A stretch of DNA of 33,101 nt from assembly GCA_001509345.1 (NCBI GenBank), contig LGGM01000014.1, positions 1 through 33,101 of the forward strand. The letters are read 5' to 3'. Shown one piece after another: positions 1 to 12,357 of the stretch (the stretch's first letter is position 1; the number at the start of each line of letters is the position of its first letter). Made by a program: the position numbers and the translations under genes. The DNA is from Clostridiales bacterium 38_11. GTDB taxonomy: Bacteria; Bacillota; Clostridia; Tissierellales; Dethiosulfatibacteraceae. The notes beneath the pieces are model-generated. The model was not told the origin of the DNA. It made no database searches and saw only the letters and a list, made by a program, of their open reading frames with translations.

Positions 1-92
1 CATCATTAACGTAGCAGTTCTCTAAACATTACATTTATGAAAACTCGCTTTCATTCTCTAATACTGTCGAATATTTAAATCAACTACTAACA

Positions 93-218
93 CTACATCT
101 TGCATAACAAACTTTTTTCTTGACATTTCTTATGCTACATCTTGTGGTTTTGGTCCTTTCACCATACTCACGTCGCGCATGATTATGATGAAAGGATAAA
201 TTTATGCAGCATCTTGTG
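93..218 (+). repeat. degenerate short direct repeats
   Basis: TATGCTACATCTTGTG at 131-146 recurs as TATGCAGCATCTTGTG at 203-218 (14 of 16 identical). A shorter version, CTACATCTTG, lies at 93-102. Between the two long copies is an inverted pair, TCCTTTCA (154-161) and TGAAAGGA (189-196). The spacing is irregular, so this is neither a CRISPR nor a regular tandem array. It could be a decayed mobile-element end or a set of protein-binding sites. Confidence 0.4.
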
Positions 219-355
219 ATTGAACACTCGTTCCCCACAATATGTGTGCTTTCTATTATTTGTCATCTTACATCATATTAACGTCTTCAACTATCAAGGA
301 TTACTTACAGTTGAATTTCTAACACCCTAGAATTCGATGGGATTAGTATTGTGAT

Positions 356-388
356 GATTGGTCACGCAGTGCGTGGTCAATCTGTTTT
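356..388 (+). terminator. terminator-like hairpin
   Basis: GATTGGTCACGC (356-367) pairs with GCGTGGTCAATC (371-382) through a 12-bp RNA stem containing two G-U pairs. The loop is three bases, and a T run follows at 384-388. This has the form of a rho-independent terminator reading rightward. No + strand gene is seen before it in the window, so it would end a transcript that starts upstream, or it is a relic. Confidence 0.5.
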
Positions 389-430
389 TCATTGGATTCA
401 TTTTAATCCCTAAAAAATCTCAGATGCTAT

Positions 431-465
431 TCGGCACTATCCGGCAGTATCCGGCAGTGCCGGAT
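431..465. repeat. 10-bp-period CCGGCAGTAT repeat with hairpin
   Basis: Three near-identical 10-bp units follow each other: tcggcactat, ccggcagtat, ccggcagtgc. The last unit forms ATCCGG (449-454) / CCGGAT (460-465) with a five-base loop. On the minus strand it directly follows the stop codon of the winged-helix remnant, so it may have been that gene's terminator, but the nearest minus-strand T run is about 30 bases further on. Confidence 0.45.
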
Positions 466-633
466 TATTTTATTTGGTAAAAAGTACTTGGCCCTTTCCC
501 TTTTTTAGCAATGACTTTTTTATCAACCAAGTCCTTTAGAACTTCTCGTGCTCTACGTTCTTCTACGTTCAATACATTTTTTGCATCTCTGGTTCTAATA
601 ATTCCATCCTGTTCTTTGAGAAACTCAACAATA
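465..633 (-). pseudogene. C-terminal remnant of a winged-helix protein
   Basis: The minus strand is open for about 55 codons, ending at the TAA at 465-467. It encodes a winged-helix-like tail: IVEFLKEQDGIIRTRDAKN, then ERRAREVLKDLVDKKVIAK, ending in PSTFYQIK. This pattern is familiar from the C-termini of AlbA_2/AAA_4-type ATP-binding proteins and some Fic proteins (family recognition from memory). The N-terminal part is absent: the reading frame runs into the structured repeat that begins at 631 and loses coding character there. The gene therefore appears truncated at its 5' side by a mobile-element end or by a deletion joined to it. It is too short for a working protein of those families. 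Confidence 0.6.
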
Positions 634-726
634 AGTGGGAGATAAGTACTGTAAAGTCCCTGGATAACGGTTTCTAAGGCTCAGATGGCGTTTCAAACGC
701 CACCTGAACCCAAGAACCCTGTTGAT
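631..726 (+). repeat. IS200/IS605-like right-end repeat, copy 1 (truncated)
   Basis: These 96 bp match 5804-5899 with six substitutions (about 94% identity). The copy contains a long hairpin, GGCTCAGATGGCGT (678-691) with ACGCCACCTGAACC (697-710), and ends CAAGAACCCTGTTGAT. The left arm of the first hairpin present in copy 2 is missing here, so this copy is truncated at about 631, exactly where the winged-helix remnant starts. Paired hairpins, an end at TTGAT and dispersed copies resemble the right end (and omega/re-RNA region) of IS200/IS605 TnpB elements. No tnpB reading frame is present. Confidence 0.6.
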
Positions 727-772
727 GCTATGTCTTCGTCTGACTCACTCGGGGCCGAAACACCCGGTGTCA

Positions 773-1309
773 TCATTGGATTTTATCGATTAGCTCGACA
801 CCCAATTGAATGGTTTTTGTCGAACCCAATAGGTCAATCTTTACCTTTGCTCTGCCTTTTCTGATGTCAAAGCTTTGTATGATTCCTTCTAATCCGGATA
901 ATGGGCCTTCCACGATTCTGATGACGTCATTTTCCTTATACGCTTTGGATATCTTCACGTTGCCGTCATCGGTTTCAAAGAAAATCCTTAATACGCTGAT
1001 TTCTGAATCGTGTATCTTCAATGGTCCGTCTTCATCTTTTAGCAACCTGGCAGCTACAGGCAATGATTTGATTGAGTAATATGTCTCTGTGGATATGATG
1101 CCTTTTAGAAACACATAGCCAGGGAACAGATTCTTTTTAACTATCCGCCAGGTACCTGCTTTTCTTTCCTTCAACTCTCTTTTGGGTACAATCACTTTCA
1201 ATTGATCTCCAAAGGCCAATTCCAGTATTTTTCTGACTTTATCCTCTTGTCCTGTCAAAACGTACAATGCATACCATTTGGTCGAATCATTGTTGGTGCC
1301 CATACTCAC
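773..1309 (-). CDS. loaP: LoaP-like NusG paralogue (processive antiterminator)
   Basis: This 178-residue protein has the NusG layout. The NGN domain starts at WYALYVLTGQEDKVR (residues 12-26) and includes the hallmark NLFPGYVFL (60-68); a KOW region lies at about 126-155. The WYxLYVxTGQE opening is typical of LoaP, the NusG specialised paralogue that loads on RNA polymerase to promote readthrough of long polysaccharide or antibiotic operons in Bacillota (established knowledge). Core NusG is normally found beside secE and rplK, which are absent here. The GTG start at 1309 overlaps the stop of the upstream regulator as GTGA; an ATG at 1303 with GTGAGG upstream is an alternative. No polysaccharide operon follows within the remaining 772 bp, although LoaP targets are often adjacent, so its target is elsewhere or has been displaced. 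Confidence 0.8.
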   Translation of the reverse strand: MSMGTNNDSTKWYALYVLTGQEDKVRKILELAFGDQLKVIVPKRELKERKAGTWRIVKKNLFPGYVFLKGIISTETYYSIKSLPVAARLLKDEDGPLKIHDSEISVLRIFFETDDGNVKISKAYKENDVIRIVEGPLSGLEGIIQSFDIRKGRAKVKIDLLGSTKTIQLGVELIDKIQ

Positions 1310-1920
1310 CTCACAAAAAACCTTTCCACCCTTGACATGTCATACCCGGTCCTTTCCAGATTATCTAAAATGGTATCCTCATAGGCATAGCTGGTGACCA
1401 CAATGACATCATGTATGTAATCATGGATGTCTTGTGAACTGATGATGGGATATCCCATCATGGATCCTCCAATCTTTGCTTGGTCATCGTCTATGACGGC
1501 CACTACCTGGAGACCATTCTCCTCAGTATCCCTTAAGACACTGAGGATAGTCTCCGCCACTTCTCCTGCTCCGTAGAGAAGGATTTTCCGATAATGCTTG
1601 TCCTTCACTTCAAAGATATAGGATTTGACGTTGCTCTTTGCCAGCTTGTACAGATCCAGCAGCTCCTTGGTATAGGTAATCAAGAGATAGTTTTTCCTTT
1701 TCAGTCCTTCCGGTGTGACAAAATAATGCACTGTCTTGGATGAGCGATACTTTCTTATAATCAAGCCCTTCTGTTCAAGCGCATTGATATACTGATTGAT
1801 CATAGAAACGGCCGCACCAACAACCTCTGACAGTTCCTTCTGCGTACAGTCAAATTTGCTCTCTATATGTTGCAAGAGCCGCAATTCCTTTAGTTCACTG
1901 GTAGGATTGAAAAATTTCAT
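1306..1920 (-). CDS. winged-helix regulator with sugar-nucleotide-type Rossmann domain
   Basis: This 204-residue protein has two parts. Residues about 10-75 form a MarR/ArsR-like winged helix (TQKELSEVVGAAVSMINQYI, then a wing ending in VHYFVTPEG). Residues about 110-204 form a Rossmann-like domain opening with ILLYGAGEVAE (113-123) and followed by AVIDDDQAKIGG. The second part resembles the CoA_binding_3 domain of CapD encoded nearby, which reads VMVVGAGEAG and LIDDDRLKIG at matching points. No catalytic SDR domain follows. The gene overlaps loaP by four bases, so the two are probably translated together. AAGGAG lies eight bases before the ATG, and a promoter with an adjacent inverted repeat is at 1941-1990. 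The likely role is a ligand-sensing regulator feeding LoaP; the ligand is inferred, not shown. Confidence 0.7.
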   Translation of the reverse strand: MKFFNPTSELKELRLLQHIESKFDCTQKELSEVVGAAVSMINQYINALEQKGLIIRKYRSSKTVHYFVTPEGLKRKNYLLITYTKELLDLYKLAKSNVKSYIFEVKDKHYRKILLYGAGEVAETILSVLRDTEENGLQVVAVIDDDQAKIGGSMMGYPIISSQDIHDYIHDVIVVTSYAYEDTILDNLERTGYDMSRVERFFVR

Positions 1921-1940
1921 TAGTCTTTCTCCTTGATATT

Positions 1941-1990
1941 ATTCGCTTTACGAACGAATTAATTATATCAATATTTTCTGCTGCTGTAAA
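1941..1990 (-). promoter_or_regulatory. promoter and candidate operator of the regulator-loaP pair
   Basis: On the minus strand, TTTACA (1985-1990) is separated by 17 bp from TATAAT (1962-1967), a good vegetative promoter. Just downstream, where transcription should start, is the inverted repeat ATTCG (1941-1945) / CGAAT (1955-1959). Its position suggests an operator, perhaps for autoregulation by the winged-helix protein. Confidence 0.6.
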
Positions 1991-2028
1991 CAAGTATTCT
2001 GTCAAGTTTTAAGTTAATTTTTCGTTAT

Positions 2029-2481
2029 TCATCTTCTTTCTGTTAGCAATCGTTTAGCCAGGTGGACACGTTTTCCAAATGACTCTAAATTCTGAAACAG
2101 CTTCAGCTTGATACCTTCAGTCATTAGTATATAGTCATCTTCCTGCTCTTTGCAAAGATCTACATAGTTGAACAGATTAATATAACCGTATGCGCCATCT
2201 CGCTTATTCCATGGTTTTCTCGCCTTATAGGGTACGAGAATGTATTTGTCAGAGAGTACAATAGGTACATTGTTTTTGATCCCCAATGTTTTCCCATAGT
2301 TGTGCCTGTTTGCCCTCAAATCGGTGCAATAATAGTGAGCCATATTGTTGACGACGCTCTTAATGTTTTTGTTGACAATATATACCTCCCCACTCTCGTA
2401 AATAATCTCCGTGCAATCACCCGTACCACTAACATATTCAGGTCGGATTGCCAAAATGTCATAGTATTGGATTTCCGTCAT
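2029..2481 (-). CDS. ComK-like transcription regulator
   Basis: The 150-residue product resembles the ComK family. The diagnostic middle part, residues about 57-102, contains RANRHNYGKTLGIKNNVPI followed by VPYKARKPWNKRDGAYGYIN. It parallels the ComK pattern of a glycine-containing segment, PI, a hydrophobic strand, a polar loop and an aromatic-Ile strand. The C-terminal FxNLxSFGKRVHLAKRL matches the ComK helical tail. ComK binds paired AT-boxes and switches on DNA uptake genes in Bacillus (established). Length is close to the usual 150-200 residues. A strong site, AAGGAGGAGAGG, precedes the ATG. The divergent neighbour is a sigma factor, an arrangement that suggests a regulatory pair. Whether it controls competence here is unknown; no late competence genes are in the window. 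Confidence 0.65.
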   Translation of the reverse strand: MTEIQYYDILAIRPEYVSGTGDCTEIIYESGEVYIVNKNIKSVVNNMAHYYCTDLRANRHNYGKTLGIKNNVPIVLSDKYILVPYKARKPWNKRDGAYGYINLFNYVDLCKEQEDDYILMTEGIKLKLFQNLESFGKRVHLAKRLLTERR

Positions 2482-2623
2482 CCTCTCCTCCTTGTTTTTT
2501 TATTTGCCTTTTTATTCGATGAAAAACAAAAGACCCTTATATTCTATCAAAGATAAATATCAATTCAAGGACTTTCGTTCATTTATTAACAATTTTTTAA
2601 AAACTTTTCACTTTTCCCTTAGA

Positions 2624-2667
2624 GGACTTGTTGAAAGTACAGCCTGTACTTTGAATAAGTCCGCCTT
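2624..2667 (+). terminator. long hairpin with T run upstream of the sigma gene
   Basis: GGACTT (2624-2629) pairs with AAGTCC (2657-2662), and inside it AAAGTACA (2634-2641) pairs with TGTACTTT (2645-2652) around GCC. A T-rich stretch follows at about 2665-2669. The shape is that of a rightward terminator, but it lies upstream of the sigma gene. It could be an attenuator in that gene's leader, or the inner perfect palindrome could be an operator shared by comK and the sigma gene. Confidence 0.5.
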
Positions 2668-2720
2668 TTTATTATCCTAAAATCTTTGATAAGCTCTCCC
2701 TAGCCGGAACTAAATTACAT

Positions 2721-2752
2721 GAGAGCGCTCTCCTGAAAAGGAGACACAATTG
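2721..2752 (+). promoter_or_regulatory. palindrome and self-pairing ribosome binding site before the sigma gene
   Basis: GAGAGCGCTCTC (2721-2732) is a perfect 12-bp palindrome. Overlapping it, TCTCC (2729-2733) can pair with GGAGA (2740-2744), which is the Shine-Dalgarno sequence of the TTG start at 2750. The two structures share 2729-2732 and exclude each other, so this is a candidate translational switch or a DNA operator. Confidence 0.45.
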
Positions 2753-3337
2753 AATAAGAAAAATTCACAAGAGTTATTCAACAGATGGTTGGATAAAGCA
2801 AAGAATGATGATGTGAAAGCCATGGAAATCGTGATGGAGATGCTGACACCACTGGTCATATCATCCGCCAGGAAGTATTTTCTGGGTGATATGCCCTATG
2901 AAGATCTGATGCAGGAAGGCTATCTGGTGATTGCGGAGTGTATGGACCAGTTCGATGATGACAGAGGAATCCCATTTCTGGGATATGTGAAGACCATGCT
3001 TCGATTTCATTTTATGGATCTTGGTAGAAAGACGATAAAAGAGCAATGCGACTCGCTGGACCGTCCCATCAAGAGTGCAGATGATGATATAACTCTAATG
3101 GATGTGATAGCGGACGAAGAAGCATCAGCAGATGGTGCTATGCTACATGACGAGAAAATGAAAGCGCTGATGCAAGGTATAAAGACCCTCAGTCCGAGAG
3201 AGCTGCAGGTCATCAGTCTAAACTACTATGTAGGGCTCAACATGATCGAAGTCGCACGCGAGCTGGGTATCGCATACCGGACAGTTGTCAACACCAAGGT
3301 CCATGCATTGCGTAAGCTGGAGGTCTATCTGCGGTAA
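2750..3337 (+). CDS. sigma-70 family RNA polymerase sigma factor
   Basis: The 195-residue protein has a sigma region 2 (about 30-95, with YEDLMQEGYLVIAECMDQFD and the aromatic-rich FLGYVKTMLRFHFMD) and a sigma region 4 helix-turn-helix (about 145-192, LSPRELQVISLNYYVG and the recognition part IAYRTVVNTKVHALRK). There is no region 1 or 3, so it is a small alternative sigma factor of ECF or SigH-like size. The start is TTG at 2750, chosen because AAAAGGAGA ends six bases before it and no upstream ATG is in frame. It is divergent from the ComK-like gene. No anti-sigma gene is adjacent, so control may act through the leader structures at 2624-2744. The regulon cannot be told from the sequence. 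Confidence 0.85.
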   Translation: MNKKNSQELFNRWLDKAKNDDVKAMEIVMEMLTPLVISSARKYFLGDMPYEDLMQEGYLVIAECMDQFDDDRGIPFLGYVKTMLRFHFMDLGRKTIKEQCDSLDRPIKSADDDITLMDVIADEEASADGAMLHDEKMKALMQGIKTLSPRELQVISLNYYVGLNMIEVARELGIAYRTVVNTKVHALRKLEVYLR

Positions 3338-3384
3338 CATTGCCTAAGATACCAAATAACCACCAAGGCTTCAGTTAGCACTAT

Positions 3385-3564
3385 ATGGTATTCAACATCA
3401 ACGCTAAACGCTTCAAACATTACTCTTGTATGAGCTCAATGACTTGCTAAATTTTCAAAAACTCACCTACGGTTCAGACACTTGAAAATTATTAACGCAA
3501 GTCATCTGCGCTCTTCTATCTGATATAACTCAGCAAAGTTTATCTTATGATAGTCGAATACCAT
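3385..3564. repeat. 180-bp imperfect palindrome, non-coding
   Basis: The 286-bp gap between the sigma gene and capD holds nested inverted repeats: ATGGTATTC (3385-3393) with GAATACCAT (3556-3564), ATGACTTGC (3439-3447) with GCAAGTCAT (3497-3505), and ATTTTCAA (3451-3458) with TTGAAAAT (3482-3489). The arms are at matching distances, so the whole stretch could fold into one long imperfect hairpin. No protein is encoded. It may be a MITE-like element or a structured RNA. Confidence 0.6.
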
Positions 3565-3608
3565 ACTATTAGATCGTTGCCAAGTGATTATGCTATCGAT
3601 ACTGTGTC

Positions 3609-3645
3609 AAAAAAGGAAACTGGCTACGAAGGCGTAGCCAGTTTC
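3609..3645 (-). terminator. terminator overlapping the end of capD
   Basis: On the minus strand, GAAACTGGCTACG pairs with CGTAGCCAGTTTC over 13 bp (3616-3628 and 3633-3645) with a four-base loop, followed by TTTTTT (complement of 3609-3614). The stem contains the last codons and the TAG stop of the dehydratase gene, so the terminator is built into the reading frame. Confidence 0.9.
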
Positions 3646-5522
3646 TTATCTTCAATATGAATCACTTTCCCATCCTCACTCTTATTATAAGTATACTCCG
3701 GTACCAGCTTCTTAAGGTATTGGCGGATATCCTCCTCTTCCCCCTTGTTGACCATTCCCTTCAATATCTCCAGATGATGAACCAGATGGCTCAGATCCGA
3801 GAATATTGACTTCCCAATAAATATCTTGCTATGGGCTGTTTCAGAGACATCTTCCTCCGCTAGCAACAATTCTTCATATAGCTTTTCACCTGGTCTCAGA
3901 CCAATAAATACGATATCAATATCCTCATAGGGTGTAAATCCCGACAGCCTGATAAGATCCTCCGCCAAATCGATGATCTTGATTGGCTCACCCATATCCA
4001 GAACGAATATTTCGCCACCCTTTGCCATAGCCCCCGCTTCCAGCACCAGCTGGGAAGCCTCCGGTATGGTCATAAAGTATCGGATGACTTCCGCATGGGT
4101 GACTGTCACCGGTCCCCCCAGTGCGATCTGTTTTTTGAATAGGGGTATGACACTTCCGTTGCTGCCAAGGACATTGCCAAATCTCACCGCAGTAAACTCC
4201 GTATTGCTTTCTCTATCATAGCTCTGGACAATCATCTCACAAATACGCTTGGTGGCACCCATGACATTGGTGGGATTGACCGCCTTGTCAGTCGATATCT
4301 GGACAAACTTCTCTACCTTGTATTTGTCAGCCATGATAGCAAGATTCCAGGTGCCAAATATGTTGTTCTTTACCGCTTCATGTGGGCTGTTTTCCATCAG
4401 TGGCACATGCTTGTGAGCCGCCGCATGGAAGACTACATTGGGCTGATAATGGTTGAAAAGATAATCCAATCTATTGAGATCCCTGATGGACGCGATAATA
4501 TAGATAAATTCGATCTTCAAATGGTCTTTTGCCAACTTCCGTTTAATCTCCTGCTGAAGATCATATAGACCATTTTCGTTTACATCAAACAATATAACTT
4601 TTTGAGGCTGATATTTGATGATCTGTCTGACCAGCTCCGACCCGATGGACCCCGCCGCTCCTGTCACCATAATTGTCTTCCCTCTGATGAACTGGCTGAT
4701 GTTGGTAACATCGAGCTGAACCTCTTCCCTGCCAAGAAGATCCTCTATTCCGACCTCTCTGACCTGGGAGATATTGACAGAGCCGTCTATGATCTCATAG
4801 ACACCCGGTAAAATCTTGAGCTTGCAGTCTGTCTTTTTGCATTCGTTGACCACTTCCTTGATCTCTCTCTTGGATGCGGATGGAATGGCAATGATGATTT
4901 CATCTATTTCTTTTGATTTTGCGATATGGACAATATCATTGCGATTTCCCAATACAGGAATACCATTGATATTTTTTCCGATTTTTAGCCTGTCATCATC
5001 AATCAATACCACCGGCAGGCTGTTAAGCTGGATATGTTTTCTCAGTTCCTTGATGACCATGACACCGGCCTCACCAGCCCCAACAACCATCACACGATTT
5101 TGAATTCCCTTGTTGAATAGATTGCCTTCACTCTTGTATTTTCTCAGCAACCGGTAGCTGAACCTTATCCCGCCTATTAAGGCTACATCCAGTATCCCCA
5201 CAATAATGAAGATGCTTCTAGGTACAGAAGCCTGAATGAAGAATAGATAAACCACTGCAGCTCCCTGTGCCACTACCGCTGCGGTTATGATTTGTATCAT
5301 TTCTTCGATAGAGGCATATATCCATAGACTGTTGTAAAGCTTGAAGAAATAAAAGACGGTGATTTTGATCACTATTGTGATAAGCAGGTGCTGGGAAATC
5401 ACTTCCCGGTGAACTGCTGGTATAGCACCGTCAAAACGTAGCATATATGCCAGGATAACCGAAAGAGCCAACAAAATGATGTCAGCAAAAATTAGCAACA
5501 AGTTTTTGTAATTTCTATCCAA
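3624..5522 (-). CDS. membrane nucleotide-sugar 4,6-dehydratase (CapD/WbpM/PglF family)
   Basis: The 632-residue product has about four transmembrane helices in residues 1-120, a CoA_binding_3 Rossmann domain (VMVVGAGEAG, 144-153), and a C-terminal catalytic SDR domain with the NAD-binding GAAGSIG (288-294). The active-site stretch STDKAVNPTNVMGATKR (410-426) is characteristic of membrane-bound UDP-GlcNAc 4,6-dehydratases such as WbpM and PglF, in which the usual YxxxK is replaced. The likely reaction is UDP-GlcNAc to the 4-keto-6-deoxy sugar, the entry to amino-deoxysugars of capsule, O-chain or glycoprotein glycans; the exact substrate is inferred. The start is TTG at 5522, with AGGGGGGAA upstream. 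It has its own promoter (5557-5585) and terminator, so it is monocistronic. A LoaP-like gene nearby fits polysaccharide regulation. Confidence 0.9.
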   Translation of the reverse strand: MDRNYKNLLLIFADIILLALSVILAYMLRFDGAIPAVHREVISQHLLITIVIKITVFYFFKLYNSLWIYASIEEMIQIITAAVVAQGAAVVYLFFIQASVPRSIFIIVGILDVALIGGIRFSYRLLRKYKSEGNLFNKGIQNRVMVVGAGEAGVMVIKELRKHIQLNSLPVVLIDDDRLKIGKNINGIPVLGNRNDIVHIAKSKEIDEIIIAIPSASKREIKEVVNECKKTDCKLKILPGVYEIIDGSVNISQVREVGIEDLLGREEVQLDVTNISQFIRGKTIMVTGAAGSIGSELVRQIIKYQPQKVILFDVNENGLYDLQQEIKRKLAKDHLKIEFIYIIASIRDLNRLDYLFNHYQPNVVFHAAAHKHVPLMENSPHEAVKNNIFGTWNLAIMADKYKVEKFVQISTDKAVNPTNVMGATKRICEMIVQSYDRESNTEFTAVRFGNVLGSNGSVIPLFKKQIALGGPVTVTHAEVIRYFMTIPEASQLVLEAGAMAKGGEIFVLDMGEPIKIIDLAEDLIRLSGFTPYEDIDIVFIGLRPGEKLYEELLLAEEDVSETAHSKIFIGKSIFSDLSHLVHHLEILKGMVNKGEEEDIRQYLKKLVPEYTYNKSEDGKVIHIEDKKLATPS

Positions 5523-5556
5523 AAGTCATTCCCCCCTATTAAGTTGTCGCATTCTA

Positions 5557-5585
5557 ATTATACCCATTTTTGGCGATCTATACAA
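5557..5585 (-). promoter_or_regulatory. promoter of capD
   Basis: On the minus strand, TTGTAT (5580-5585) and TATAAT (5557-5562) are separated by 17 bp. Transcription should start near 5550, about 28 bp before the TTG codon. The structured repeat at 5700-5899 therefore lies upstream of the promoter and is not in the capD leader. Confidence 0.7.
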
Positions 5586-5699
5586 TTATTTTACCGTATT
5601 ATATAACTTTTGCGTATTTTTATATAGTCTTATAGTGAATTTAATTTATGAATTTTTCGGAATATGTTATGATTTGAAATAATTGGTGTTGCCACTACA

Positions 5700-5899
5700 G
5701 GTTGTCAAAAACGGGAGATTATATGATAGTCGGGTCTTTGACTATGGGAAAGCCTAGCGCTCATATTTATCCGATGACTAACAGTGCTAAGACTCCCACT
5801 TCTATAAGTGGGAGATAAGCACTGTATAGTCCCTGGATAACGATTTCTAAGGTTCAGATGGCGTCTCAAACGCCACCTGAACCCAAGAACTCTGTTGAT
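5700..5899 (+). mobile_element. possible non-autonomous IS200/IS605-type element, repeat copy 2
   Basis: 5804-5899 matches 631-726 at about 94%. This copy keeps a complete compound hairpin: outer CAGTGCT (5782-5788) / AGCACTG (5818-5824) and inner CTCCCACTT (5793-5801) / AAGTGGGAG (5806-5814). A second hairpin follows, GGTTCAGATGGCGT (5851-5864) / ACGCCACCTGAACC (5870-5883), and the end is CTGTTGAT. Further left, ATAGTC (5726-5731) / GACTAT (5740-5745) is a small hairpin that could be the left end. About 200 bp with subterminal hairpins and no gene fits a palindrome-associated relic of an IS200/IS605 family element. The left boundary is a guess. The remaining DNA in 5523-6083 holds only the capD and corA promoters. 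Confidence 0.5.
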
Positions 5900-5979
5900 C
5901 CTCTATCAGTAATAATCTATTGACCTGTCCATTATATCAAAAAAATGCTGATAATACATCGCCATTATTGATTAATCTG

Positions 5980-6008
5980 TTTATTTCCCTTGTATGAATT
6001 GTTATACT
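5980..6008 (+). promoter_or_regulatory. probable corA promoter
   Basis: TTTATT (5980-5985) and TATACT (6003-6008) are 17 bp apart, giving a leader of about 70 bases before corA. No magnesium riboswitch-sized structure is present in that leader. Confidence 0.5.
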
Positions 6009-6083
6009 GTAAGTAAAGAAAAAATGTACTGGCAGTAAGGATTTCTTTGACGTAAATTTGATAATCAATCAGGAGGCCAACCT

Positions 6084-7112
6084 ATGAAAAACGATAAAAT
6101 CAATTACCCACCGGGCACACTGATCTACACAGGAGATTATACCGATCAGGAAACAAAAATGGAGCTGTACTCCTTTGATGAAAGCGAATATACCATAAGG
6201 CAAATCAGATCAATCGATGAAGTGCCTTCAACCCCACAGAAAAAATGGCTGAATGTCATCGGTCTAAACAATATTGATATAATCCGGGAGATCGGTAATC
6301 GTTACGGCATCTCTGATCTGGTGCTTGAGGATATATTGAATCCAGACCACAGAAGTAAATTGGAATATATTGATGACAAGCTGTTCGCGGTTCTGAAGAT
6401 GGTTTATTTAAAAAAAAATAAAATTGTTCATGAACAGCTCTCTCTTCTCGTATTGGATAAACTGATCATCACATTCCAGGAAATAGAAGGAGATGTGTTT
6501 GATACTCTCCGCGGTAGGATTAGCAATGGCAAAGGCTACATCAGAACGCTTAATATCGATTATCTTTTCTACTCAATGTTGGATGCTATTGTAGACCACT
6601 ATTATACAGCATTGGAGTTTGTCGAAACACTGATTGATCATGTTGAAGAGATCGTGATGAATGAAGAGAATGATGCGATGGATAGGATTTATTCCACCAA
6701 AAAGGAGCTTATATACCTGAGATCTTCCATCCTTCCTATCAAGGATTTGGTCAGAAACCTGACATCAGAAGATTTCGGTCTGGTCAATGACTCGACAAAG
6801 GCTTTCTTCAGTGATTTGAATGATCATCTGGTGGAGATATCAGATGCTTTGATGCTGGATAGGGAGCTTCTCAGCAGTCTAACAGAAACCCATATATCAA
6901 ATATTAGCAACAACATGAACAAGGTGATGACGGTTCTGACTATTTTTTCAGCAATTTTTATTCCACTATCTTTCCTGACAGGATTTTTTGGCATGAATTT
7001 CTCTACTTTCCCGGGGATTCATTATGCCTATGGTGTTCATGTCTTTATTGTCGGCTGTATTGTCCTTGCCGTCAGCATGATTGCTTTTTTCAAATACAAG
7101 GGTTGGTTATAG
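6084..7112 (+). CDS. corA: CorA-type divalent cation transporter
   Basis: The 342-residue protein is a CorA-family Mg2+ (or Co2+/Ni2+) channel of the inner membrane, active as a pentamer. A long acidic and helical cytoplasmic part is followed by two transmembrane helices at the C-terminus (about 282-302 and 315-335). The diagnostic GMNF at 303-306 closes the first helix (GFFGMNFSTFPG, with Phe replacing the more common Tyr before GMN). The short positively charged tail KYKGWL also fits. Length is typical. AGGAGG at 6071-6076 is seven bases before the ATG. It is a single gene between its own promoter and the converging regulator gene, whose terminator lies between them. Confidence 0.93.
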   Translation: MKNDKINYPPGTLIYTGDYTDQETKMELYSFDESEYTIRQIRSIDEVPSTPQKKWLNVIGLNNIDIIREIGNRYGISDLVLEDILNPDHRSKLEYIDDKLFAVLKMVYLKKNKIVHEQLSLLVLDKLIITFQEIEGDVFDTLRGRISNGKGYIRTLNIDYLFYSMLDAIVDHYYTALEFVETLIDHVEEIVMNEENDAMDRIYSTKKELIYLRSSILPIKDLVRNLTSEDFGLVNDSTKAFFSDLNDHLVEISDALMLDRELLSSLTETHISNISNNMNKVMTVLTIFSAIFIPLSFLTGFFGMNFSTFPGIHYAYGVHVFIVGCIVLAVSMIAFFKYKGWL

Positions 7113-8604: not shown

Positions 8605-10608
8605 ATGAATAGAGAATTTTCTACCGGTTTGATTTATAATTTATCGCTGTTGTTGGTATTGTCAATGATCTTCTCAATCGTCAACACAAAATTTGACAAA
8701 ACAAAGCATAGACGGGATTTGCTTGCAGGTATTCTCATTGGTGCAATCGGTATCGCTATCATGAGTAATCCTGTTCATTTATTGCAAGGTATCTTCTTTG
8801 ACGGCAGGTCAATCCTTTTAAGTATTACAGGCTTGTTTTTTGGTATTATCCCTACCATGATAGCTGTTCTTATTACGGGTGTTTATCGATTGTTCATCGG
8901 TGGAGATGGCGCTCTTGTCGGGTTAGCGACAATCCTGACCAGTAGTTTTATCGGTTTTATTTGGCGTAGATATCGTCTCCAAAAGTATATTCTGGACAAA
9001 GTGTATTTTCCAGTTGTTGAGTTATATTTTTTCGGTGTTGTCGTCCATATAGTCATGCTTGCAGATCTGTTTCTGTTTTTACCACATCAGTACGCTGTGC
9101 TTCGTGTTGTGGCCCTACCAATTATTACACTTTATCCTGTTGCCAGTGTTTTTCTGGGCTTGGTCATCAAGAATCAGATTGATAAAAACAGAATAATCCA
9201 AAAGATGGAAGAAAGCGAGCAACGCTATCGAACCATTTTTGAAAACACCTATGCAGCCATGCTGATTCTAGACCCCGAAAATGGTAATATATTGGATGCC
9301 AACATATTCGCTTCATGCTTCTATGGCTACAGCATCGAAACGTTAAAGACCATGAACATGACAGATTTAAACGGTTTAAGTCATAACGAGCTTAAATCCG
9401 AGATGGAAAAAATTATTCTTCATGTGAAAAACACCTTTGTTTTTATACACAAACTATCCAATGGTGAATCGCGAACGGTTGAGATCCATTCCGGTCCACT
9501 GACAGTCAATGGCAAGCAGGTTCTCTACTCGATCATCCATGATATCACTGACAGAATCAACAGAGAAAAGGAAATCGAATACCTCAGCTTTCATGATCAA
9601 CTGACCGGACTTTACAATAGACGGTTTTACGAGTCTGAACTGAAAAGACTGGATACGTCAAGGAATTTGCCGATATCCATGATTATGGCTGATGTCAATG
9701 GCTTGAAATTGGTTAACGATGCTTTCGGGCATCAAGAAGGTGACAATCTCTTGATGATGGTACGGGATATCCTTAAAAGTGCTTGTCGTGAAGATGATAT
9801 CATCTCACGGGTCGGGGGGGACGAGTTTGTGATCCTATTGCCGAAAACAAGCTATGGGGATGCCTACGCTATCGTTCAGAGAATGAAGAGTAATGAGTCG
9901 GATTACAGTCTCAATGGTCTGGAGATTAACATTTCTTACGGTGTTGCCACCAAGACTACTGAAAACACGTCAATTGCCACCGTTTATCGGAACGCTGAAG
10001 ACAATATGTACAAGAATAAATTTTTTGAAAGCAGGAAGCTGAAAGGCAACATGATCGACACGATTATGAAAACCCTGTACGAAAAGAATCCCCGAGAAAA
10101 GAACCATTCCGAGAGAGTATCGACTCTATGTCAGGAGATGGCCAAGGCTTTGGATTTCAATCATGAGTCAATAAATGAAATCGGTGTCGCTGGTTTACTG
10201 CATGATATCGGCAAAATTACGCTTGATGAGACCATCCTCAATAAAAAAGGTCTACTAAACGATGATGAGTGGTTTCAAATGAGAAAGCACCCTGAGACGA
10301 GCTATAAGATACTGAGCTCAGTCAATGGCCTGGCAACCTCTGCCGAGTATGTTCTGTCTCATCACGAGAGATGGGATGGTGAAGGCTATCCTAATAAAAT
10401 CAGTGGTGATAGAATTCCGTACTTTTCGAGAATCATAGCGCTCGCTGATGCCTTTGATGCAATGGTGAGTGAGAGAACCTATAGCAGAATGCTGACATTT
10501 GATGAGGCGATTTTAGAGATAGAAAAAAATGCGGGGACTCAGTTTGATCCCCAGCTGGTTGAGATTTTTATCAAAACAATAAGAGTTCAGTCGAGCATGC
10601 TTGACTGA
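8605..10608 (+). CDS. membrane PAS-GGDEF-HD-GYP c-di-GMP enzyme
   Basis: The 667-residue protein probably makes and breaks c-di-GMP. Residues 1-190 carry about six hydrophobic segments of the 5TMR-LYT (LytS/YhcK) sensor type, with the conserved FIGGDGALVGLATIL. A PAS domain follows (about 205-330), then a GGDEF domain with an intact GGDEF (about 404-408) and an REDD inhibitory site five residues upstream. Last is an HD-GYP domain with HSERV, HDIGK (about 533) and HHERWDGEGYP. All motifs are intact, so both cyclase and phosphodiesterase activities are possible. The start at 8605 follows GGGAG by five bases; an ATG at 8554 would add 17 residues but lies within the promoter. It is divergent from the BTAD regulator, which may control it. 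Confidence 0.9.
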   Translation: MNREFSTGLIYNLSLLLVLSMIFSIVNTKFDKTKHRRDLLAGILIGAIGIAIMSNPVHLLQGIFFDGRSILLSITGLFFGIIPTMIAVLITGVYRLFIGGDGALVGLATILTSSFIGFIWRRYRLQKYILDKVYFPVVELYFFGVVVHIVMLADLFLFLPHQYAVLRVVALPIITLYPVASVFLGLVIKNQIDKNRIIQKMEESEQRYRTIFENTYAAMLILDPENGNILDANIFASCFYGYSIETLKTMNMTDLNGLSHNELKSEMEKIILHVKNTFVFIHKLSNGESRTVEIHSGPLTVNGKQVLYSIIHDITDRINREKEIEYLSFHDQLTGLYNRRFYESELKRLDTSRNLPISMIMADVNGLKLVNDAFGHQEGDNLLMMVRDILKSACREDDIISRVGGDEFVILLPKTSYGDAYAIVQRMKSNESDYSLNGLEINISYGVATKTTENTSIATVYRNAEDNMYKNKFFESRKLKGNMIDTIMKTLYEKNPREKNHSERVSTLCQEMAKALDFNHESINEIGVAGLLHDIGKITLDETILNKKGLLNDDEWFQMRKHPETSYKILSSVNGLATSAEYVLSHHERWDGEGYPNKISGDRIPYFSRIIALADAFDAMVSERTYSRMLTFDEAILEIEKNAGTQFDPQLVEIFIKTIRVQSSMLD

Positions 10609-11429: not shown

Positions 11430-12357
11430 AGCTCTTGATAAGGATCATTTTTCCTTCCAGCTCATAGGGTCCCAGTATTGCCGGTATGAGATAGGAATCC
11501 CCCTTCGCTATCTTTTCACGCTTGTCTCCACCATAAAGGATTTCTCCTTCTCCCGCTACACAGGTGAAAATATGGAATCTGTTCCTGTCCGATGTCTGGT
11601 ACAGAGAATCCAGTACTTCATATACCTCTATGTTGAAATCCGCAGGCAGGTTGTATTCCTTTATTTGGTTTCCTTTGTGTGTCAGCAGCATATAATCACT
11701 TTCAATGTCTTTACTGTCAAAATCCAACACCTCGTAGGCTTGTGTCAGGTCCAGTTCTCTGCCCCTGTTGTAGTCAAATATTCTAAACTCTTTTTCCACA
11801 TTCTGATGGATCTCAAGCAGGGTGATATTCTCACCAATTGCATGCAGAAGTCCGCTCTTGACATAAAACATATCCCCTGCCTTCACGTAAACTTTATTGA
11901 TACAATCCTCATAATGCTCATTTTCAAGGGCTTCCTTGAACTGTTCTTTTGTGCAGTCCTTAATACCCAGATACAGATAGGCATCCGGTTCAGACTCAAT
12001 CACATACCATGCCTCAGTTCGACCACCAGACAATCCCATTTTGATTGCATACTCTTCTGACGGATGAACTTGTATTGAAAGCTTCTCATCGGTGGTGATT
12101 ATTTTGATACTGATTGGAAACCAGCTGGTATCCACTTTTTCTCCCATCAGTTTGTGTCCATATTTATCAATCAGATTCTGAAGGGTCATCCCTTTATAAG
12201 CACCATTTTCCACTACACTGACTGCGTGTTCATGACATACGATGTCCCAACTCTCACCAATCTTTATATTTTCTGGTAGGTCATCTCTAAAAGAAGCCAA
12301 TCTCTTTCCGCCCCAGATTTTCTCTTTGTATATGCTTTTAAACTTGATAGGGTACAT
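11416..12357 (-). CDS. manA: mannose-6-phosphate isomerase, class I
   Basis: The 313-residue protein is the short, Bacillus-type phosphomannose isomerase, a zinc enzyme interconverting fructose-6-phosphate and mannose-6-phosphate. The zinc-site signature LSIQVHPSEEYA, the conserved GRTEAWYV, and LLHAIGENITLLEIHQN with a ligand His are all seen. It feeds GDP-mannose synthesis for glycans or allows mannose use. The ATG at 12357 is chosen because AAGGAG lies eight bases upstream; a GTG at 12366 falls inside the ribosome binding site. A promoter is at 12401-12429. It heads a two-gene unit with cysQ. Confidence 0.9.
   Translation of the reverse strand: MYPIKFKSIYKEKIWGGKRLASFRDDLPENIKIGESWDIVCHEHAVSVVENGAYKGMTLQNLIDKYGHKLMGEKVDTSWFPISIKIITTDEKLSIQVHPSEEYAIKMGLSGGRTEAWYVIESEPDAYLYLGIKDCTKEQFKEALENEHYEDCINKVYVKAGDMFYVKSGLLHAIGENITLLEIHQNVEKEFRIFDYNRGRELDLTQAYEVLDFDSKDIESDYMLLTHKGNQIKEYNLPADFNIEVYEVLDSLYQTSDRNRFHIFTCVAGEGEILYGGDKREKIAKGDSYLIPAILGPYELEGKMILIKSYVAI

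Follow-up and report, generated by a model that had tools for sequence, protein, structure and literature searches.

We suggest that the gene at 1306-1920 encodes a one-component, autogenous regulator of a glycan operon that would sense a uridine nucleotide or UDP-sugar, and that LoaP, made from the same transcript, would carry the polymerase onward. We give this reading a probability of roughly 55%. The DNA analysed (the window) is a 33,101-nt stretch from Clostridiales bacterium 38_11, and the features discussed here are collected in Table 1. The basis is comparison: the homology of the regulator's C-terminal domain, a conserved repeat, the promoter, the family and hairpin of LoaP, the association with glycan genes, and independent pairings of the regulator with NusG paralogues. 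Judged from sequence, the regulator represents a family without a name that heads glycan operons in Tissierellales, in relatives of Acholeplasma and Izemoplasma, and in Desulfobacterota. The papers searched contain no account of this family or of its operator, and a search of plasmid records returned no relative of the window regulator.

Table 1. Positions of the regulator-loaP locus and associated features in the window
Feature	Position	Strand	Details
CapD-type UDP-sugar 4,6-dehydratase	3624-5522	-	CoA_binding_3 domain at residues ~137-217
Sigma-70 type promoter of the regulator-loaP operon	1962-1990	-	TTTACA-17-TATAAT; 11/12 match; kept in the sister genome G002
Operator-like inverted repeat	1938-1958	-	TTCGTTCGTAAAGCGAATAAT; arms ATTCG/CGAAT; directly 3' of the -10
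Regulator open reading frame	1306-1920	-	204 aa
Regulator domains (AlphaFold2 model)	residues ~8-68, 70-107, ~110-204		winged helix; long helix (38 residues); Rossmann domain
CoA_binding_3-like Rossmann domain of the regulator	1306-1602	-	hhalign; model pLDDT 93.1; superposition
loaP, NusG paralogue	773-1309	-	178 aa; NF033641
UNCG-type LoaP-box RNA hairpin	741-775	-	core GGGTGTTTCGGCCC at 752-765; starts at the loaP stop codon; folded
99-nt dispersed repeat with very stable hairpin	631-729	-	second copy 5804-5902
Conserved non-coding junction repeat	85-180	-	CGACGTGAGTATGGTGAAAGGA...; up to 92% identical to copies in other families

Both open reading frames given in a preliminary description of this DNA are present as described there. 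Its account of the regulator as a winged helix joined to a Rossmann domain with GAGE and VIDDDQAKIGG motifs also agrees with the Pfam matches, the motifs and the structural model. The AlphaFold2 model, built on an alignment of 21 homologues, is a confident two-domain prediction (mean pLDDT 89.5). The winged helix is MarR/PadR-like, with Pfam matches to HTH_24 and MarR, and the C-terminal domain carries the motifs YGAGEVAETI and VIDDDQAKIGG. The YGAGEVAE loop is near-invariant, also across phyla, and Asp144 at the end of beta-2 is invariant. The MarR family EPS-associated transcriptional regulators (MarR_EPS, TIGR04176) resemble the regulator in having a winged helix and take their name from exopolysaccharide loci, but their model is 105 positions long and lacks a Rossmann domain. 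The window regulator scores 40.1 bits against the curated TIGR04176 cut-off of 88, and two regulators from Desulfobacterota also fall below it at 58-61 bits.

The best evidence for the mechanism came from the inverted repeat, which had at first been mentioned merely as adjacent to the regulator's own promoter. The repeat proved to be real and conserved. The promoter is the best of eight sigma-70-like matches in 600-2600, and a TG precedes its -10. Because 5.9 such matches are expected by chance in this interval, what supports the promoter is the quality of the match and the fact that the sister genome retains it; there, the -10 and the operator-like repeat are identical to those of the window. 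Upstream of the Tissierellales regulator genes, the best site lies just 3' of the -10 in 21/21 regions, with the consensus ATCGTTCGTTCAACGAATGAA. The Acholeplasma relatives have ATTATTCGATAAACGAACAAT-like sites in the upstream region, and the Desulfobacterota genes have GTTCAATTATTGAAC-like sites, often two. The pattern RTTC-N7-GAAY occurs upstream of 62 of 75 regulator genes, where shuffled sequences give an expectation of about 1.75, and spacers other than 7 are near zero except for 3 and 11 in a minority of genes. The window operator is among the weaker sites. It fits the strict pattern only if shifted, and its leave-one-out score is 14.1 against a shuffle maximum of 9.6 (14.1 against 16.6 in the sister genome). 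A search of the whole genome with the pattern gave one convincing site, which suggests dedicated autoregulation. Thus, there is strong comparative evidence for autogenous control through this predicted, conserved dyad. The regulator most likely acts as a repressor, since the repeat lies over the core promoter and start site. GTTC-N7-GAAC is also found at the start of four shorter winged-helix relatives elsewhere in the phylum (L229-L232). These and a fifth relative (L093) are 172-187 aa long and lie mostly at glycan loci; the fifth, from G006, adjoins CapD and has a different C-terminus.

The regulator is strongly associated with glycan operons, as far as gene order can tell. In the order, 37/249 genomes have a match. 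In about 26 of them the alignment spans most of the homologue; the rest have short, broken or CapD-type matches. When 84,980 species genomes were scanned, Acholeplasma, Izemoplasma, Halanaerobiales, Oceanobacillus and Deltaproteobacteria joined the list. Outside the order, few genomes of the phylum carry the family (7/398, this genome included), and a wider survey of Desulfobacterota found matches to the regulator profile in 68 of 297 genomes. At 20 Tissierellales loci, the regulator usually stands directly ahead of a DegT aminotransferase or a sugar transferase (PGT), and CapD, Wzc-like, CpsB-like or flippase genes often lie upstream. The link to glycan operons recurs in the survey that the preliminary description had proposed: at 37 of 40 loci outside Deltaproteobacteria, at least one of the next three genes encodes a glycan enzyme (PGT, DegT, SDR/CapD, UDP-sugar dehydrogenase or PglD). 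Some copies of the regulator contain internal stops (G155:C1:2777-3384, G191:C2:1625110-1625406 and G206:C220). In the window, genes for a ComK-like protein (2029-2481, minus strand) and a sigma-70-family factor (2750-3337, plus strand) lie upstream of the regulator, an order that is kept in G002 (L033).

A recurrent pairing of the regulator with loaP near glycan operons, which the same survey was to reveal, was not found. The adjacency is seen in this genome alone. In the sister genome the regulator is followed by DegT, without loaP; in 20 Tissierellales relatives, re-checked with the LoaP profile, the regulator is never beside loaP; and none of the other 11 LoaP loci above the cut-off in 398 genomes of the phylum (12 with the window) adjoins a regulator. 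A strict regulator-loaP pairing as a general rule is therefore rejected. LoaP stands without the regulator at the corresponding position in G010 and G804, preceded by Wzc or ligase genes and followed by glycan genes, which suggests that the regulator and LoaP are usually alternative heads of the operon and that both are present here. The same observations, together with the repeats and the gene remnant downstream of loaP, could also mean that the neighbourhood arose as insertions and deletions reshaped a hypervariable glycan locus, and that no functional coupling was selected. We consider this explanation unlikely, though it deserves weight. Against it, the regulator and loaP are likely to share a transcript, as they have a single promoter and overlap or nearly do so, the LoaP hairpin is intact directly downstream of loaP, and the regulator recurs in tandem with NusG paralogues in Desulfobacterota.

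This recurrence is extensive. At the deltaproteobacterial loci of the 84,980-genome scan, a NusG paralogue is the next gene in 8/8, with an exact 4-nt overlap in seven and an ambiguous start in the eighth. Among 36 distinct regulator loci of Desulfobacterota, a NusG paralogue lies directly downstream in 17 and upstream in three (20/36). RTTC-N7-GAAY is present in 17/17 upstream regions of the loci with the paralogue downstream and in 9/18 of those without. Three of these paralogues that were scored against NCBIfam pass the cut-off of UpxY and not that of LoaP, so their mechanism may differ from that of LoaP. In a tree of 78 regulators, with the three upstream cases counted as unpaired, the label for downstream pairing changes five times, and at least two of these changes are forced by well-supported branches. 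The window regulator falls among Bacillota without the pairing, beside the unpaired sister. By this tree, the pairing of the regulator with a NusG paralogue arose at least twice. Thus, the initial idea of a sensor switch ahead of a NusG paralogue fails for loaP as the recurrent partner, but since the two-gene arrangement recurs with other NusG paralogues in Desulfobacterota, it survives in altered form. The capsule operons of Bacteroides also have a NusG paralogue (UpxY) and a second regulator (UpxZ) as their first genes. UpxZ inhibits the UpxY proteins of other loci, whereas the regulator described here would be a DNA-binding protein with a dyad at its promoter.

LoaP proteins are antiterminators with which RNA polymerase can read through long surface-sugar operons. 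The window protein passes the NCBIfam model NF033641 with 176.2 bits against a cut-off of 125. There are two candidate starts, GTG at 1307-1309 and ATG at 1301-1303. The four-base overlap with the regulator, as originally proposed, holds with the GTG; the ATG, which has GAGG five nucleotides upstream as read from the sequence, looks likelier and leaves a 2-nt gap instead. Translational coupling of the two genes is expected with either start. Directly after loaP, CACCGGGTGTTTCGGCCCCGAGTG forms a UNCG-type hairpin, and G010 has such a hairpin at the same place. Its core, GGTGTTTCGGCC, is also found after loaP in G010 and at one locus of G161, where the predicted LoaP-box fold is weak. A related UUCG hairpin is present at another G161 locus, so that a hairpin or core follows two of the three LoaP genes of this genome. 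A loose LoaP-box pattern matched the window genome less often than did its reversed control, and among its matches GGTGTTTCGGCC appears once, after loaP. An Rfam search of 1-6200 gave no match. In B. velezensis, a UNCG-type hairpin is required for LoaP antitermination (PMC12691694). The LoaP of the dfn/mln operons in that species resembles the window LoaP in belonging to the NCBIfam LoaP family and in having such a hairpin in the presumed leader (PMC12691694), but the window loaP differs in standing in tandem with a regulator and in having the hairpin directly after its stop codon. The UNCG hairpin of G010 and of one G161 locus is followed by a further long predicted hairpin, which GGGCGAAGCTATRYC closes, and G804 and G222 have the GGGCGAAGCTATRYC motif as well (loci after loaP: L083, L085, L122 and L213). 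The motif is absent from the window, where a dispersed repeat stands in its place; the LoaP step may therefore be impaired in this strain.

The C-terminal domain of the regulator is, by sequence and fold comparison, homologous to the CoA_binding_3 domain of CapD and WbaP. The CapD of the window carries GAGEAG and LIDDDRLKIG, and its near end lies 1704 nt from the start of the regulator. When the genome is searched with the regulator, CapD is the sole other match (37% over residues 111-170, E 6e-5), and hhalign aligns the two domains over 76 columns with a probability of 95 and an E value of 1.9e-8. The likeness between the two proteins, first noticed in their motifs, is thus above chance. We describe the domain as homologous to PF13727 rather than as a member, because the single-sequence score of the regulator (15.1 bits) is below the Pfam gathering cut-off of 25. 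When superposed alone, the predicted domain matches 2g6t best (Z 13.6), followed by 3nkl, a UDP-quinovosamine 4-dehydrogenase entry (11.8), Rex Rossmann domains (up to 11.2), succinyl-CoA synthetase (11.2) and the CoA_binding_3 domain of WbaP (8t53, 10.6). It therefore shares its fold with WbaP and 3nkl, but since most of these Z values are close together, the fold alone does not pick a ligand. The WbaP domain is stabilised by UMP, UDP and UTP and destabilised by UDP-Gal (PMC10942596). From the homology to this domain and from the gene context, the ligands of the regulator are probably uridine nucleotides or UDP-sugars. In WbaP and CapD/PglF, which share the fold and the sugar-nucleotide context, the domain is part of membrane enzymes, whereas here it would be the effector domain of a DNA-binding protein.

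The signal had initially been put as a sugar nucleotide or a redox cofactor. The response of the WbaP domain to uridine nucleotides and a UDP-sugar (PMC10942596) makes a sugar-nucleotide sensor reasonable, and NAD, as in Rex, stays a rival. The regulator would then be a Rex-like redox sensor, with NAD(H) on its Rossmann domain coupling glycan expression to the NADH/NAD+ ratio. Like the regulator, the Rex redox-sensing repressor has a winged helix followed by a Rossmann domain; Rex proteins are the top Foldseek matches of the whole model, their Rossmann domains superpose well as given above, and GAGEVA, together with the acidic residue that closes beta-2, is compatible with dinucleotide binding. 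We nevertheless find a redox sensor rather unlikely. The whole model superposes poorly on Rex (TM 0.37, rmsd 17 A), the DNA-binding domain of Rex itself is not among the listed Pfam matches, domains of the CapD/WbaP type are at least as close as Rex, and the gene context is UDP-sugar metabolism. The regulator also differs from Rex in its type of winged helix, its long linking helix, its domain arrangement and its adjoining glycan genes. Membership of the Rex family itself was rejected, as the regulator falls below every curated NCBIfam cut-off for Rex (at best 25.5 against 138 bits). It is improbable that the regulator is a feedback autorepressor with no metabolite signal, whose Rossmann domain serves mainly for dimerisation as also in WbaP, where most dimer contacts lie in the homologous domain (PMC10942596): an operator-like dyad does need a dimer, but the near-invariance across phyla of the YGAGEVAE loop and Asp144 exceeds the needs of a dimer interface alone, and a domain of the same type in WbaP responds to nucleotides.

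We therefore favour an autogenous regulator that senses uridine nucleotides or UDP-sugars, and we hypothesize that it works as follows. The winged helix would bind the RTTC-N7-GAAY repeat at its own promoter, most likely repressing it; in the window, the repeat sits at the expected start site, next to TATAAT. A uridine nucleotide or UDP-sugar on the C-terminal domain would change the affinity for DNA, and the glycan operon would open when precursor is available. loaP would be the second gene of the transcript, its UNCG-type hairpin following at once, and the regulator would set both the initiation of this transcript and the amount of LoaP. LoaP would then let the polymerase pass terminators into the downstream, presumably glycan, genes. 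Since one promoter serves both genes, relief of repression would increase LoaP along with its target transcript. More tentatively, and with somewhat less than even odds, the system may be a relay from initiation to processive elongation, in which one metabolite signal sets both the start and the completion of a long glycan operon. An autorepressor with one operator design across phyla would then have been joined at least twice to antiterminators of the NusG family, of the UpxY type in Desulfobacterota and LoaP here.

How specialised NusG paralogues and polysaccharide operons are switched is largely an open question. The regulator family, whose members are found at glycan loci of several phyla, offers a concrete candidate for such a switch: a sensor for which both a DNA site and a class of ligand can be predicted. 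The RTTC-N7-GAAY inverted repeat upstream of its members is new here. If our reading is correct, the nucleotide-sensing domain recently characterised in WbaP would serve gene regulation as well as enzyme allostery.

The contig stops 772 nt past loaP. In this stretch, GACATAGC gives way to the 99-nt dispersed repeat, then to the 3' remnant of a gene whose homologue lies between the regulator and a PGT in G219, and then to non-coding repeats that other glycan loci share. The two window copies of the 99-nt repeat are 93% identical, and its hairpin has a predicted energy of -30 kcal/mol (z -6.4). A PF02397 phosphoglycosyl transferase was sought in this 97%-complete genome and none was found, and this family was dropped as a route to the glycan operon. 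Given the contig end and the lack of PF02397, the controlled operon is unseen in this genome; it is either missing from the assembly or lost from the genome. The genes read with LoaP here would presumably be glycan genes. The CGACGTGAGTATGGTGAAAGGA... repeat recurs where glycan operons begin, in many cases ahead of the first PGT or DegT gene (L088 at about 10284-10365 and 11951-12337, L083 at 9158-9207, L119, L121 and L122), and is possibly a JUMPstart-like leader or an insertion-linked repeat.

Other contigs also end about 0.3-0.8 kb downstream of the regulator or loaP (the set is G000:C23, G002:C217, G200:C178, G222:C67, G227:C28 and G228:C93), and such repeated assembly breaks are as expected for a strain-variable glycan locus. 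At L122 (G222:C128, 6555-7070), a divergent LoaP-like gene with 90 bits to the LoaP profile lies at a contig end ahead of PGT genes; the same genome has a regulator at another contig end, which may be its near neighbour in the same locus. Small inserted genes are found between the regulator or LoaP and the glycan genes at L083, L087-L091, L119 and L213. By eye, the inserts at these junctions comprise four-helix-bundle (S23-like), pilin-like and AlbA_2-like genes and a HEPN/MNT-like pair.
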